32,497 nt of DNA from contig CP070701.1 in the NCBI GenBank assembly GCA_020349885.1, positions 1 through 32,497 on the forward strand, given 5' to 3'. Shown in pieces: positions 11,339-23,427 of this stretch (its first letter is position 1; each line of letters opens with the position of its first letter). Under the pieces are notes generated by a model. The model had not been told where the DNA came from. It was given only the letters and a program-made list of their open reading frames with translations, and searched no databases. The position numbers were made by a program, and so were the translations under genes. The DNA comes from Acidobacteriota bacterium. Lineage in GTDB: Bacteria; Acidobacteriota; G020349885.

Positions 11339-12082
11339 CTACTTGGATCGGCGGCCGGTCAGCAGCCGCCAAAGCCACGTCAACGGGTCGTAGAACCGGT
11401 CCACCACCCTTTCCTTGAGGGCGATGATGGCGTTGTCGGTGATCGTGATCTTCTCGGGACACACCTCGGTGCAGCACTTCGTGATGTTGCAGTAGCCGAT
11501 GCCGCCCTCGTCCTTGAGGTACCGGAGGCGGTCGGCGACGTCCAGCGGGTGCATCTCGAGCCCCGCGGTGCGCACCAGGAAGCGCGGCCCCATGAAGGCG
11601 TCCTTCAGATCGTGGTCGCGCAGGACGTGGCACACGTTCTGGCAGAGGAAGCATTCGATGCACTTGCGGAACTCCTGCGCGCGCTCCACGTCGTGCTGAA
11701 AAAATTTCCAGTCCGCGTCGGCCTTCGGCGTAAACGGCGTGATCCGCTTGTTGGTCTCGAAGTTCCACGAGACGTCCGTCGCCAGGTCCCTGATGACGGG
11801 AAACGTCTTGATGGGGGTCACGGTGAGGGGCTCGCCCTCTGGGAACAGGTCGAGGCGCGTCATGCACATCAGGCGCGGCCGGCCGTTCACCTCGGCGCTG
11901 CAGGAGCCGCATTTTCCCGCCTTGCAGTTCCAGCGGCACGCGAGCTCGTTCGACTGCCGCGACTGGACGCGTAGGACGGCGTCCAGCACCACCATGCCTT
12001 CCTCGACCGGCACGCGGTATTCCCGTATCTCGCCGCCCTGGGCGTCGCCGCGGAACAGGCGCAGCGTGAGGTCCGACATCAC
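11339..12082 (-). CDS. sdhB: Succinate dehydrogenase iron-sulfur subunit SdhB
   Basis: A 247-residue electron-transfer subunit. The [2Fe-2S] ligands are C53, C58, C61 and C73 in NCKAGKCGSC and LMC. The [4Fe-4S] motif is CIECFLCQNVC (141-151). The third cluster has C198, C203/C204 and C208 in CNITKCCTEVCPE. The run RWNCKAGKCGSCSAE is, to my knowledge, typical of the actinobacterial Sdh1-type subunit rather than of E. coli SdhB. The GTG at 12082 overlaps the sdhA stop by four bases and an ATG follows at once (12079), so either could start; AAGGGGAG precedes both. It ends nine bases from the convergent nuclease gene. Confidence 0.94.
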   Translation of the reverse strand: MMSDLTLRLFRGDAQGGEIREYRVPVEEGMVVLDAVLRVQSRQSNELACRWNCKAGKCGSCSAEVNGRPRLMCMTRLDLFPEGEPLTVTPIKTFPVIRDLATDVSWNFETNKRITPFTPKADADWKFFQHDVERAQEFRKCIECFLCQNVCHVLRDHDLKDAFMGPRFLVRTAGLEMHPLDVADRLRYLKDEGGIGYCNITKCCTEVCPEKITITDNAIIALKERVVDRFYDPLTWLWRLLTGRRSK

Positions 12083-13875
12083 GCGCTCTCCCCTTCGAGC
12101 AATTTTTTCAGCTCGTCCGGCATTTCGGGAAGCGGCTCCTGGGCCACTTGCATCGCGCCGTCGCGCCTTCGAATCACGACGTTGACCTTCGCGAACGCCT
12201 TGTCGTAGTCGGGATAATCCTCGCGCGTGTGGGCGCCGCGGCTTTCCTTCCTCTCCAGCGCGGCGCGCGCGAGCAGCTCGCTCACCGTCAGGAGATTCTT
12301 TAAATCAATCGCCTCGTTCCAGCCGGGGTTGTACTGCCGGGTGCCGCTCACCTTGACGCCGGAGGCGCGCTTGCGAAGCCCGGCGAGCGCATCGATGGCC
12401 GCGCGCAGGTCCTTCTCGTTCCGGACGATGCCCGCGTTCTTTTCCATCATATCTTGAAGGGCCTCGTGGACGACGAAGGGGTTTTCCCCTTCGCTGCGGT
12501 TGAACGACTCCAGCAATTCTTTCGCACACGCTTCCGCCTCGGCCAGGTTGACGCGCGGCTTTTCCCGGAGGGATTTTGCGTATTCCGCCGCGCCCTGTCC
12601 CGCGCGCCGGCCGAACACGACCAGGTCCGAGAGCGAGTTGCCGCCCAGGCGGTTCGCGCCGTGCATGCCCCCCGCCGCTTCCCCGGCGGCAAAGAGGCCG
12701 GGCACGGTCGCGGCCTGCGTCTCCGGGTCCACGCGGACGCCGCCCATGGCGTAGTGAGCCGTGGGGCCGACCTCCATCGGCTCCTTCGTGATGTCCATCC
12801 CGGCCAGCTCCATGAACTGGTGGTGCATGCTGGGCAGCCGTCTCTTGACGTACTCGGAGTCCATGTAGGCGATGTCGAGAAGAACGCCGCCGTGCGGGCT
12901 GCCGCGCCCCTCGCGCACCTCGCTCACGATGGCCCGCGCGCAGACGTCGCGCGTGAGAAGCTCCGGAGGGCGGCGCGCCTGCTTGTCTCCCGCGAGCCAG
13001 CGGGAGGCTTCCTCCTCCGAGGCGGCCACGTCGTTTTTGAACGCTTCGGGAATGTAGCTGAACATGAAGCGCTCGCCCTTCGAGTTTTTCAGGACGCCGC
13101 CGTCTCCGCGCACGCCCTCGGTCACGAGCGTGCCGCGCACGCTCGGCGGCCAGACCATGCCCGTCGGATGAAACTGCATGAATTCCATGTCGACCATGTC
13201 CGCGCCGGCTTCGTAGGCGAGAACGTGGCCGTCGCCCGTGTACTCCCACGAGTTGGAGGTCACCTTGAAGGCCTTGCCGACGCCCCCCGTGGCGAGCACG
13301 ACGGCCTTCGCGCGGAACAGCACGAACAGCCCGCTCTCGCGGAAGTAGCCGAAGGCGCCCGCGATTCTTTCGCCGTCCTTCAGCAAGTGGGTGATGGTGC
13401 ACTCCATGTGGACGTCCATGCCCGCGTGCACGCCCCTGTCCTGGAGGGTGCGGATCATCTCGAGGCCCGTGCGGTCCCCCACGTGGCAGAGCCGCTTGTA
13501 GGTGTGGCCTCCGAACGCGCGCTGCGATATGCCGCCCACGGCCGTGCGGTCGAAGATCGCGCCCCACTCCTGGAGCTCGCGGACGCGCTCGGGGGACTCC
13601 ATGGCGTGGAGCTGCGCCATGCGCCAGTGGTTGAGCATCTTGCCGCCTTTCATCGTATCGCGGAAGTGGACTCTCCAGGTGTCCTCCGGGTCCACGCTCG
13701 CAACGGCCGCCGCCATGCCCCCTTCGGCCATGACCGTGTGCGCCTTCCCGAGGAGCGACTTGCAGACGAGGCCCGTTTTCACGCCCAGGGCCGACGCCTC
13801 GATGGCCGCGCGCAGCCCCGCTCCGCCCGCGCCGACGACCAGCACGTCGTAATCGCGTGTTTCGTAGCTCGCCAT
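12079..13875 (-). CDS. sdhA: Succinate dehydrogenase flavoprotein subunit SdhA
   Basis: A 598-residue catalytic subunit oxidising succinate to fumarate. It has the FAD-binding VLVVGAGGAGLRAA near residue 11, the covalent-flavin histidine H46 in KAHTVMAEGG, MQFHPTGMVWPP, the catalytic-arginine region TEGVRGDGG, HYAMGGVRVD, and GANRLGGNSL. Gene order is C-A-B on one transcript with a three-base gap from sdhC and overlap into sdhB. Fumarate reductase is the alternative, since the families are not cleanly separable by sequence. The menaquinone pathway marker mqnD in this window means the quinone is probably menaquinone. Confidence 0.95.
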   Translation of the reverse strand: MASYETRDYDVLVVGAGGAGLRAAIEASALGVKTGLVCKSLLGKAHTVMAEGGMAAAVASVDPEDTWRVHFRDTMKGGKMLNHWRMAQLHAMESPERVRELQEWGAIFDRTAVGGISQRAFGGHTYKRLCHVGDRTGLEMIRTLQDRGVHAGMDVHMECTITHLLKDGERIAGAFGYFRESGLFVLFRAKAVVLATGGVGKAFKVTSNSWEYTGDGHVLAYEAGADMVDMEFMQFHPTGMVWPPSVRGTLVTEGVRGDGGVLKNSKGERFMFSYIPEAFKNDVAASEEEASRWLAGDKQARRPPELLTRDVCARAIVSEVREGRGSPHGGVLLDIAYMDSEYVKRRLPSMHHQFMELAGMDITKEPMEVGPTAHYAMGGVRVDPETQAATVPGLFAAGEAAGGMHGANRLGGNSLSDLVVFGRRAGQGAAEYAKSLREKPRVNLAEAEACAKELLESFNRSEGENPFVVHEALQDMMEKNAGIVRNEKDLRAAIDALAGLRKRASGVKVSGTRQYNPGWNEAIDLKNLLTVSELLARAALERKESRGAHTREDYPDYDKAFAKVNVVIRRRDGAMQVAQEPLPEMPDELKKLLEGESA

Positions 13876-13878
13876 GGC

Positions 13879-14649
13879 CTAGAAAATCCTCACGTCCGTC
13901 CAGGCGCCGGAGGCGACCATACTCACGTAGAAATCGGCGAAGCCCACCATGAAAAGGCTCGTCCACGCCCAGAACATGTGGGTTCGGTTCAGGATGCTCA
14001 CGAGGCTCCACGTCTTGTGTCTCGTGCCGCCGAGAGAGGCGCATGAGAAGCAATCCACGTTACCCCCGATCAGGTGGCGCAGGGCGTGGCATCCGCACAC
14101 GTACAGAGTGAGAAGGCTCGTGTCCGCGAGAAGCACCAGGCTTCCCACCCCTACGCCGAAGCCGTCGTCGAAGAAGAACGCCAACCCCACGTCATGCCAG
14201 TGAAACACCAGCAGGGCGAGAGCGACGTAGAGGAAGTAGCGGTGGAGGTTTTGCAGGACAAAAGGAAACGCCGTTTCCCCCTTGTAGCGGCGCTTCGAGC
14301 GCTCGCCAACCGCGCAGGCGGGCGGGTCGAGGAAATACGCGCGGTAGTAAACCTTGCGGAAGTAGTAGCACGTGAGGCGGAAGCCCGCGGGCGCCCACAC
14401 GATCAGAAACGCCGGCGAGCGCGGAATCCACTCCGGCCAGAACTCGGGAAAGGGGAACTGGGGAGAATAAAAGGGCGATGTGTAGGGCCCCCACTCGTAG
14501 TGCATTCCCTGGAACGCCCGCCATGTGGAGTACACGATGAAGAGGAACAGTGCCGTTGCCGTCGCAAGAGGCCCCATCCACCAGAGGTCGCGCCGCAGGG
14601 TGACTCCGAAACCGCCTGGAGAGGAAACCGCGCTGGTTGGATTTGTCAT
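13879..14649 (-). CDS. sdhC: Sdh1-type membrane anchor subunit (fused SdhC/D) with Cys/His cluster
   Basis: A 256-residue integral membrane protein with about five helices (near 28-46, 78-95, 133-155, 168-186 and 222-245). It replaces the separate SdhC and SdhD anchors. A striking motif starts at residue 184 and holds C185, C187, H188, H192, C200, C203 and H211 (CGCHALRH, then DCFSC). As I recall, the mycobacterial Sdh1 structure showed a membrane-embedded Rieske-type [2Fe-2S] cluster in this subunit. The residues here would allow such a cluster, but the ligand assignment is inference. Other membrane histidines (H136, H150, H152, H224) could bind haem. The upstream site is weak, but the promoter is strong. 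Confidence 0.8.
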   Translation of the reverse strand: MTNPTSAVSSPGGFGVTLRRDLWWMGPLATATALFLFIVYSTWRAFQGMHYEWGPYTSPFYSPQFPFPEFWPEWIPRSPAFLIVWAPAGFRLTCYYFRKVYYRAYFLDPPACAVGERSKRRYKGETAFPFVLQNLHRYFLYVALALLVFHWHDVGLAFFFDDGFGVGVGSLVLLADTSLLTLYVCGCHALRHLIGGNVDCFSCASLGGTRHKTWSLVSILNRTHMFWAWTSLFMVGFADFYVSMVASGAWTDVRIF

Positions 14650-14950: not shown

Positions 14951-15844
14951 ATGGCGGACGAATCGAAGAAGAAAACGGCGGCCACGGCTCCTCAATTGCA
15001 AGGGGGTGAGCCCCAGAGCGACCTCCTCAAAAAGGGAGAGAAATTTCTTGAAATCTACAACATGGGCAAGCAGTTTACCGAGGAGGTGCTGCGCGAGAAC
15101 GAGAAGCTGCGCTACAAGGTCGCCTCGCTAGAAAGCCGGGTGCAGTCCGGAGGGGGCGACGTTCCGGAAGAAGTCTCGCACCTGCAGAAGAAGCTCGAGC
15201 GGGCCGAGGACGAGAAAAAACTCCTCGAGTCCAAGTACCGCGAGGTCGAGAGCGAGAACAAGGACTTCGCCCGCCGCTACCTCGAGATCGAGGAGCAGAA
15301 CAACAACCTCGCCAACCTCTACGTCGCCTCCTACCAGCTCCACTCGACGCTCGACTTCCAGGAAGTCGTTCAGATCGTCATGGAAATCATCATCAACCTC
15401 ATCGGCGCCGAGGAGTTCGCGCTGATGCTTCTCGACGAGAAGACGAACGAGCTTTCCGTCGTGGCGCACGAGAGCATGGAAAACTACCCCCGGACGAGCA
15501 TCTCGATAGGCAAGGGCATCATAGGGACGGTTGCGAGGACGGGCGAGCCGTACTACATCAACCAGGACCCCAAGCACTGCGACGTGGGCTACGAGCACCC
15601 GCTGGTGTGCATACCGCTGAAGATCAAGGAGCACGTCATCGGGGTGATAACGCTCTACAAGCTGCTGGTGCAGAAGGACAGCTTCTCGGCGGTGGACTAC
15701 GAGCTGTTCACGCTGCTTGCGGGGCACGCGGCGACGGCGCTGTTCAGCTCGAAGCTCTACTCCCAGTCGGAGCGCAAGCTCTCCACCATCCAGGGATTTC
15801 TCGACCTGCTCACCACCACGTCGGACGAAAAAGGCGAAGAGTAA
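14951..15844 (+). CDS. Coiled-coil and GAF domain signalling protein
   Basis: A 297-residue soluble protein. Residues 1-30 are polar and low in complexity, about 45-125 form a coiled coil rich in Glu, Lys and Leu, and about 135-275 form a GAF domain. The GAF part includes LDFQEVVQIVMEI, VVAHESM, the ISIGKGIIGTVARTGEPYYI segment, LVCIPLKIKEHVIGVITLY and the final helix LLAGHAATAL. No output domain (histidine kinase, GGDEF, phosphatase or HTH) follows, so it is probably a sensor that works through partners. The response regulator gene begins with the base after its stop, so the two are coupled. The ligand is unknown. Confidence 0.85.
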   Translation: MADESKKKTAATAPQLQGGEPQSDLLKKGEKFLEIYNMGKQFTEEVLRENEKLRYKVASLESRVQSGGGDVPEEVSHLQKKLERAEDEKKLLESKYREVESENKDFARRYLEIEEQNNNLANLYVASYQLHSTLDFQEVVQIVMEIIINLIGAEEFALMLLDEKTNELSVVAHESMENYPRTSISIGKGIIGTVARTGEPYYINQDPKHCDVGYEHPLVCIPLKIKEHVIGVITLYKLLVQKDSFSAVDYELFTLLAGHAATALFSSKLYSQSERKLSTIQGFLDLLTTTSDEKGEE

Positions 15845-16225
15845 GTGGCTTCGAATTCCATCACGTTCCTGGTCGTGGAGGACTCGCCCACGATGCGGCA
15901 GCTCATTTCGTTTTCGCTGAAGCGTTTCGAGGGGTGCCGGATCGTGGAGGCGGTGGACGGGGTGGACGCGTTGAAGAAACTCTCTACCGACAGCGTGGAC
16001 ATGATAGTGACGGATATCAACATGCCGGTGATGGACGGCCTCAAGCTCGTCAAGCTCGTGCGCGAGAACGACAAGCTGAAGCACCTCCCGATCATCATCA
16101 TCACGACCGAGGGCGCCGAGGAGGACCGCGAGCGCGGCCTCCAGCTTGGCGCGAACGCCTACATCGCCAAGCCCATCCAGTCTTCCAACCTCATCAAGAC
16201 CATCACCAGCCTCCTGCCGGCGTAG
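15845..16225 (+). CDS. Single-domain CheY-like response regulator
   Basis: A 126-residue receiver domain with no output domain. The key residues are E12/D13 (VVEDSPTMRQ), phosphoacceptor D57 (MIVTDINMPVMDGL), T87 or T88 (IIIITTEG) and K109 (AYIAKPI). SPTMRQ after the acidic pair resembles CheY/Frz-type receivers. It starts with GTG directly after the stop of the GAF gene, so the pair is one translational unit. No kinase is in the window. A chemotaxis-like or phosphorelay role is possible but unproven. Confidence 0.92.
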   Translation: MASNSITFLVVEDSPTMRQLISFSLKRFEGCRIVEAVDGVDALKKLSTDSVDMIVTDINMPVMDGLKLVKLVRENDKLKHLPIIIITTEGAEEDRERGLQLGANAYIAKPIQSSNLIKTITSLLPA

Positions 16226-22529: not shown

Positions 22530-22601
22530 CCGGTGATCGATGCCGGCTGTCCTCATTCTTTGCCGGTCATCAATAATCAATCATTGGTCATCGGTCATTA
22601 A
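22523..22601. repeat. Degenerate heptanucleotide repeats, two inverted blocks
   Basis: Right block on the plus strand, 22567-22601: TCATCAA, TAATCAA, TCATTGG, TCATCGG, TCATTAA, strictly every seven bases. Left block on the minus strand, 22543-22523: GCATCGA, TCACCGG, TCATTGG. The left block overlaps the PP2C stop codon. The consensus is near TCATYGG. The spacer is much richer in A+T than the flanking genes. Confidence 0.7.
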
Positions 22602-22605
22602 AAGC

Positions 22606-23427
22606 ATGACCCGCCTGACGCTCGCCCACAGCCCCGACGCCGACGACGCGTTCATGTTCTACGCGCTCGCGCACGAGAGGGTGCCGACCGACGGGCTCGT
22701 GTTCGAGCACGTTCTCGCGGACATCGAAACCCTCAACCGCAAGGCCCTCGAAGGGGCGTACGACATCACGGCGGTCTCGTTCCATGCCTATCCCCGCCTC
22801 TCGGAGCGCTACGCGCTCATGCCCCTCGGGGGAAGCGTGGGCCGCGGCTACGGCCCCGTCCTGGTGGCGCGCAATGACGACAAGGCGTTTTCCCCGGCCG
22901 GCGCGACGGTGGCCACGCCGGGGGAGATGACGACGGCGCACCTTCTCCTGCGCCTCTACGAGCCCCGCGTGCAAACGGTCGTGATGCCCTTCGACACCAT
23001 CCTCGACGCCGTGTCCGAGCGGAAAGTCGAAGCGGGCCTTCTCATCCACGAGGGACAGCTCACCTACGCCAAGCACGACCTTGCGAAGGTGGCCGACCTT
23101 GGGGCCTGGTGGCTCGACGAGACCAGGCTTCCCCTGCCCCTGGGCGGAAACGTCATCCGGCGAAGCCTTTCCGACGGCGTGCGCGCCAAGGCGGAGCGCG
23201 CCATGCGGCTCAGCATCGAGTACGCCCTGGCGCACACGGACGAGGCGCTCGACTACGCCATGCGGTTCGGGCGGGGACTCTCGCGCGAGGCGGGCAAGCG
23301 GTTCGTCGCCATGTACGTCAACGGCTACACGCTGGACTACGGAGCGGAGGGGCGCCGCGCCATAAAAACGCTTTTTGACATGGCGCACGAGCGCGGGCTC
23401 CTTCCCGCGGTTTCTCTGGACTTTTGA
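22606..23427 (+). CDS. mqnD: MqnD, 1,4-dihydroxy-6-naphthoate synthase (futalosine pathway)
   Basis: A 273-residue enzyme with a periplasmic-binding-protein-like fold but no signal peptide. MqnD converts cyclic dehypoxanthine futalosine to 1,4-dihydroxy-6-naphthoate in menaquinone biosynthesis. The start AHSPDADDAFMFYAL is a family hallmark, followed by DITAVSFHAYP, the substrate loop VATPGEMTTAHLLLRL, LIHEGQLTY and LPLPLGGNVIRRSL. The frame is open upstream into the repeat block, but ATG 22606 gives the standard N terminus. The stop overlaps the hpnC ATG by one base (TGATG). mqnA, mqnB and mqnC are not in the window. Confidence 0.92.
   Translation: MTRLTLAHSPDADDAFMFYALAHERVPTDGLVFEHVLADIETLNRKALEGAYDITAVSFHAYPRLSERYALMPLGGSVGRGYGPVLVARNDDKAFSPAGATVATPGEMTTAHLLLRLYEPRVQTVVMPFDTILDAVSERKVEAGLLIHEGQLTYAKHDLAKVADLGAWWLDETRLPLPLGGNVIRRSLSDGVRAKAERAMRLSIEYALAHTDEALDYAMRFGRGLSREAGKRFVAMYVNGYTLDYGAEGRRAIKTLFDMAHERGLLPAVSLDF

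Follow-up and report, generated by a model that had tools for sequence, protein, structure and literature searches.

Heme-bearing complex II anchors use pairs of histidines, and in the work on the structure of Mycobacterium smegmatis Sdh1, a change of two histidine ligands reportedly stopped quinone reduction. Sdh1 belongs to class F of complex II; according to the accessible part of a review, which takes 7D6V as its example, the single membrane subunit of this class has six helices and coordinates a Rieske cluster within the membrane (PMC10238741). A first-pass annotation of the DNA analysed here had referred to a reported Rieske-type cluster in the anchor of mycobacterial Sdh1 and had looked for the ligands of such a cluster in an anchor from another lineage. 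The accessible parts of PMC10238741, PMC13332983, PMC12695928, PMC9461714, PMC10154673 and PMC7447783 name no cluster ligand residue; the structure paper (PMC8054011) lay outside this search.

We analysed the first 32,497 nucleotides of contig CP070701.1 from an Acidobacteriota bacterium (hereafter the window). By computation we showed that all three subunits are homologous to those of 7d6v, and we determined the order of the operon, the fold of the anchor and its conservation. With a probability of roughly 85%, sdhC of the window encodes the anchor of a class F succinate:menaquinone oxidoreductase, in which invariant Cys and His residues would hold a putative Rieske [2Fe-2S] cluster and the menaquinol would be re-oxidised by cytochrome bd.

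The sdh operon and its genome

Three genes make up the operon:

13879..14649, minus strand: sdhC, class F (Sdh1-type) succinate dehydrogenase membrane anchor, 256 aa (PDB sequence match and model fold match to 7d6v_C)
12079..13875, minus strand: sdhA, flavoprotein subunit (NF005866/PRK07803.1, 981.5 bits, cut-off 819; 7d6v_A, 770.7 bits)
11339..12082, minus strand: sdhB, iron-sulfur subunit with Fer2 and 4Fe-4S domains (NF009052/PRK12386.1, 412.2 bits, cut-off 256; 7d6v_B, 348.9 bits)

The first gene, sdhC, starts with ATG and is separated from sdhA by 3 bases, and sdhA and sdhB overlap by 4 bases. A plus-strand reading of 13879-14649 was rejected, as sdhC lies on the minus strand. The stretch 14951-16225, transcribed in the direction opposite to the operon, encodes a GAF-domain protein and, after it, a lone response-regulator receiver domain.

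For SdhC, 7d6v_C/7d6x was the sole PDB sequence match up to E 10 (175.9 bits, E 1e-50), with 100 of 233 aligned residues identical. The best PDB sequence for SdhA was 7d6v_A, far above a runner-up at 327.1 bits, and that for SdhB was 7d6v_B, with the next at 77 bits. Because all three subunits have 7d6v/7d6x as their best PDB sequence, by wide margins, the assignment of SdhC as a class F (mycobacterial Sdh1-type) anchor is well supported. SdhA and SdhB both also exceed the curated cut-offs of their NCBIfam models, which bears out the earlier view that SdhB is of Sdh1 type. As neither Pfam nor NCBIfam has a model that matched SdhC itself at E up to 0.1, class F anchors of this kind are easily left unnamed.

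The host genome (2,398,617 bases in one contig, 95.29% complete) contains one class F SdhC and one SdhB match at E ≤ 0.001. Of 14 control genomes, 11 gave a match to the SdhB model, which should therefore also have picked up SdhB proteins of other types here; SdhCAB is the sole complex II that we found the genome to encode. Cytochrome bd subunit I, citrate synthase and two UbiA-family prenyltransferases are also encoded, as is LpxC, from which we take the host to be Gram-negative. Two genes of the menaquinone-biosynthesis family PF02621 are present, one of them in the window, about 8 kb from the sdh operon:

22540-23427: menaquinone biosynthesis gene (PF02621, MqnA/MqnD type)

No match to COX1 was obtained in the genome at this completeness, and its oxygen-respiring chain is possibly bd-only. 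Most likely, menaquinone receives the electrons of succinate and hands them to cytochrome bd; we infer both this direction and the quinone and oxidase partners. Menaquinone has a low potential and, together with the missing COX1 match, this would suit an enzyme that runs mainly in reverse, as a menaquinol:fumarate reductase. We regard that direction as possible, with the odds clearly against it. The genome encodes cytochrome bd and citrate synthase and has only this one SdhB match, and SdhCAB is therefore likely to be its citric-acid-cycle enzyme. In addition, work cited in the accessible part of PMC13332983 found no fumarate reductase activity for Sdh1 or Sdh2 of M. tuberculosis under hypoxia.

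Candidate ligands in the anchor

An AlphaFold2 model of SdhC was built from the window protein and 59 of 80 relatives from a set of genome contigs, with locus L047 excluded for a stop within its range. The model had a pLDDT of 84.9 and a pTM of 0.81, and its TM-score to 7d6v_C was 0.78. A fold search with it returned 7d6v_C at Z 23.1 (rmsd 3.1 over 239 residues), followed by a next row at Z 6.8; Z-scores below 8 (polycystin, cytochrome b6f and others) denote common arrangements according to the tool and were left unused. Ten helical segments are predicted, four of at least 18 residues and one broken at 79-105. The model is weak across residues 91-130 (mean pLDDT of ten-residue blocks 72, 57, 50 and 60), a stretch that contains C94 and C112. 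The operon holds a single anchor gene, and one membrane subunit, of six helices, is what the accessible part of the review gives for class F (PMC10238741). An internal duplication of SdhC, with helices 2-3 repeated as helices 4-5 and one Cys and one His in each, was rejected, as its hhalign probability of 0.1 (E 0.55) was no better than the 0.6 and 0.1 of reversed controls.

Conservation was assessed in anchors from 60 same-phylum genomes, the named genome contigs, 396 phylum genomes (30 best loci), plasmid records and 7d6v_C. Removal of identical or contained sequences left 118 non-redundant rows from 126 proteins; L009, the second piece of the L008 gene, was given no separate row. C94, C112, H136, C187, H192 and H224 were invariant in all 118 rows, 7d6v_C included, and H188 was kept in 115, with Asn in the remaining three. 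Thus, every Cys or His that is invariant over the alignment is common to 7d6v_C and the window protein. The patterns that seeded the genome-contig search contain C94 and H136, which biases its 80 rows toward those two residues. The remaining 38 rows were selected without a peptide pattern, although also by similarity to the family, and all seven conserved Cys/His (H188 included) were present in 38 of 38. The positions concerned are as follows:

14368..14370, minus strand: C94 codon (7d6v C114), TCYYxR motif, candidate ligand; 118/118 rows, 38/38 non-pattern rows
14314..14316, minus strand: C112 codon (7d6v C132), loop PPACAVGE, candidate ligand; 118/118 rows, 38/38 non-pattern rows
14242..14244, minus strand: H136 codon (7d6v H155), NxHR motif, candidate ligand; 118/118 rows, 38/38 non-pattern rows
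14089..14091, minus strand: C187 codon (7d6v C206), helix break, candidate ligand; 118/118 rows
14086..14088, minus strand: H188 codon (7d6v H207), nearly invariant His; 115/118 rows
14074..14076, minus strand: H192 codon (7d6v H211), candidate ligand; 118/118 rows
13978..13980, minus strand: H224 codon (7d6v H240), start of last long helix, candidate ligand; 118/118 rows
14041..14052, minus strand: C200 and C203 (CFSC), lineage-specific extra Cys pair outside the conserved set; pair in 25/118 rows, His and a gap in 7d6v
14095..14097, minus strand: C185 codon, Cys nearly private to the window protein; 2/118 rows
14017..14019, minus strand: H211 codon, not conserved; 22/118 rows

In the model, C187 sits at the break between helices 168-185 and 188-195, and H224 opens the last long helix (224-247). 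Lys and Arg residues outside the helices fall mostly in two loops, with 8 in 93-129 and 4 in 186-223. As these loops adjoin the conserved Cys and His, the positive-inside rule suggests that they probably face the inner side, where SdhB docks.

If the family shares a 2Cys/2His site, this site must, judging from the alignment, draw on the invariant set, and at least one of its cysteines must come from C94 or C112, outside residues 185-211. Three invariant Cys and three invariant His would allow several such sets. In the model that we favour, FAD in SdhA would take the electrons of succinate and hand them to the Fe-S clusters of SdhB. A Rieske-type [2Fe-2S] cluster, located where the SdhC helices meet the cytoplasm, would receive them next and pass them to menaquinone, whose reduced form cytochrome bd would re-oxidise. 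Two Cys from C94, C112 and C187 and two His from H136, H192 and H224 would hold the cluster, with H188 as a weaker candidate, and C185, C200, C203 and H211 would be unnecessary for it. We infer the cluster itself, the choice among its candidate ligands and the membrane side; the invariant residues could alternatively serve in quinone binding, SdhB contact or folding. The candidates are narrowed to six or seven and four of the seven residues first proposed are removed, which brings the question within reach of a small mutagenesis test.

The extra cysteine pair, the Cys/His patch and a paralog

In residues 200-219 of the window protein (13993-14052) and the same region of the 117 other rows, an extra cysteine pair occupies one of two places or neither. 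The pair was found at 200/203 in 25 rows, at 216/219 in 54, at both in none and at neither in 39 (n = 118). An 80-row branch of the tree contains all 54 rows of the 216/219 kind, and of the 25 rows of the 200/203 kind, 24 are among the other 38 rows. This deep split has support 100/100 in a bootstrap not yet settled. Such a pattern would suit an anchor with two sites, namely the family-wide Rieske cluster and, close to SdhB, a second metal site or a disulfide formed by the extra pair, which is C200/C203 here and, for most rows of the other large branch, C216/C219. We consider this unlikely. The full pair is absent in one third of rows, the mycobacterial protein included, no partner ligands have been identified for it, and it only presumably lies close to SdhB. 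Moreover, the mutual exclusion of the two places (Fisher p 2e-8, which ignores kinship) overstates the evidence, as about one change of place on the tree may explain it; the pattern is one to explain and is weak as statistics. More doubtful still is the specific proposal that many Gram-negative class F anchors have, beyond the Rieske cluster, a cysteine-based site in the inner loop beside SdhB (200/203 or 216/219) that would tune or gate the electron step to menaquinone and be absent from mycobacteria. On sequence grounds, the extra pair cannot supply the putative Rieske ligands of the family.

The first-pass annotation had instead drawn the ligands from C185, C187, H188, H192, C200, C203 and H211. 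These seven residues are present as numbered, within 27 residues (185-211) of a protein that has 6 Cys and 8 His in total. At least seven Cys/His in any 27-residue span arose in 663 of 100,000 shuffles of SdhC, a density above chance but not extreme. Within the patch, C187, H188 and H192 are conserved, whereas C185 (2 of 118 rows), C200 (27), C203 (25) and H211 (22) are not and are absent from the mycobacterial protein, where 7d6v_C has Leu, His, a gap and Tyr, respectively; the invariant C94, C112, H136 and H224 lie outside the patch. Since more than three quarters of the rows are without C185, C200, C203 and H211, no shared cofactor can rest on them, and it is very improbable that the patch, with C200 and C203 among the ligands, holds the cluster. 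Alignment with the mycobacterial Sdh1 anchor, on which the original idea had been staked, was made by conservation with 7d6v_C rather than from a published ligand list; it places the conserved candidates partly elsewhere and finds them conserved in the window protein, so that the original idea holds up in modified form.

Least probable of all is that the conserved His bind heme b, as in heme-bearing anchors, rather than an Fe-S cluster: the three invariant His probably lie close to one membrane face, but the closest solved relative belongs to a class described with a Rieske cluster and the three invariant Cys would be left unexplained. Heme-containing anchors of other complex II classes showed no sequence match to SdhC (PDB, E up to 10; Pfam/NCBIfam, E up to 0.1) in searches that distant kinship may escape.

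The favoured assignment of the invariant Cys and His to a cluster can be set beside a Cys/His-poor relative of the anchor. In the search of 396 phylum genomes, two genomes of one genus (G250 and G364) gave a partial anchor match only. The locus has an ORF of 222-223 codons, or 219-220 aa from the first Met, which the family profile matched at 82.4 and 86.5 bits (with E-values that apply to a two-sequence search only):

L129 (minus strand), L130:2248-2904 and L131-L134: anchor paralog, by family profile match

The paralog keeps the first membrane segment and the C-terminal DLYIRLCSMG stretch. Of the seven conserved Cys/His, six are missing: C94 and H188 fall in gaps, and the paralog has Leu or Ile in place of C112, Glu in place of H136, Ala in place of H192 and Arg in place of H224, in an alignment of distant sequences whose gaps could be placed otherwise. 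One Cys aligns with C187 but without its motif. The sequence retrieved around two copies (5.0 and 4.7 kb) gave no match to sdhA or sdhB at E up to 1. Among 41 genomes of that genus, six carry a full-length paralog: the genome of the search query itself, plus five in which the protein is 72-91% identical to the query. This conservation suggests a kept gene. Loss of the Cys/His in an anchor away from sdhAB fits, without proving, a cofactor role for the conserved residues.

Relatives and known systems

The scan of genome contigs returned at least 591 pattern-matched stretches, and 581 of those listed encode relatives, some of them possibly one gene found through both patterns; the 80 rows used above are the best distinct loci among the matches listed. 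In the phylum of the window, relatives occur in 84 of 396 genomes, the host's own included, and two of the 84 are the paralog. The relatives from the contig scan stand in records titled Acidobacteria, Planctomycetota, Deltaproteobacteria/Myxococcales, Gemmatimonadetes, Verrucomicrobia, Roseivirga and Cyclobacteriaceae (Bacteroidota), Zixibacteria, Chloroflexi and others. The order sdhC-sdhA-sdhB was found in 67 of the 80 best loci; the remaining 13, of which 11 show sdhA alone and 2 neither gene, lie on stretches too short to tell. Many rows from the phylum of the window group in the tree with records titled Acidobacteria, which by itself would make Acidobacteriota the probable phylum. The window protein shares a set of four rows with records of Calditrichaeota, Planctomycetota and Zixibacteria (support 99/82, from the same unsettled bootstrap). 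It is a typical representative of an established class, and the company it keeps is as expected.

The first-pass annotation had spoken of an unusual electron path, through a membrane [2Fe-2S] cluster to menaquinone, in a Gram-negative lineage. The path stands as the best reading of a class F anchor, LpxC and two PF02621 genes in one genome, but the word unusual does not, as relatives are common in many Gram-negative phyla. A mycobacterial speciality is thereby placed in a much wider setting. Our literature search, in the parts of the sources that were accessible, turned up no account of class F from these Gram-negative phyla. One may well be given by Hards et al. 2019 and by Karavaeva and Sousa 2023, and we claim no first sighting of Gram-negative class F. 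The present analysis contributes a corrected set of ligand candidates, the Cys pair with its two alternative places, and the paralog.

Among known systems, the anchor of Wolinella fumarate reductase (class B, 1qlb_C) is likewise a helical membrane anchor, and its fold match to the window SdhC is weak (Z 4.0, within the tool's range of common arrangements, versus 23.1 for 7d6v_C). The class A diheme Sdh of M. smegmatis (Sdh2, 6lum) has SdhA and SdhB subunits homologous to those of the window (327.1 and 64.7 bits), but differs in the anchor, as the window anchor matches no PDB chain other than 7d6v_C at E up to 10. M. smegmatis Sdh1 (class F, 7d6v/7d6x) differs in several points. Where it has C209 and H219, the window protein has L190 and C200 (7 of 118 rows have Cys at the C209 position). 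No His in the window protein corresponds to H223 of Sdh1, and the window loop is three residues longer, with CFSC; unlike the Sdh1 host, the window host is Gram-negative. Overall, Sdh1 is the system that the window complex resembles, as the best match of all three subunits and with the same anchor fold, and its C114, C132, C206, H155, H207, H211 and H240 are C94, C112, C187, H136, H188, H192 and H224 of the window SdhC.
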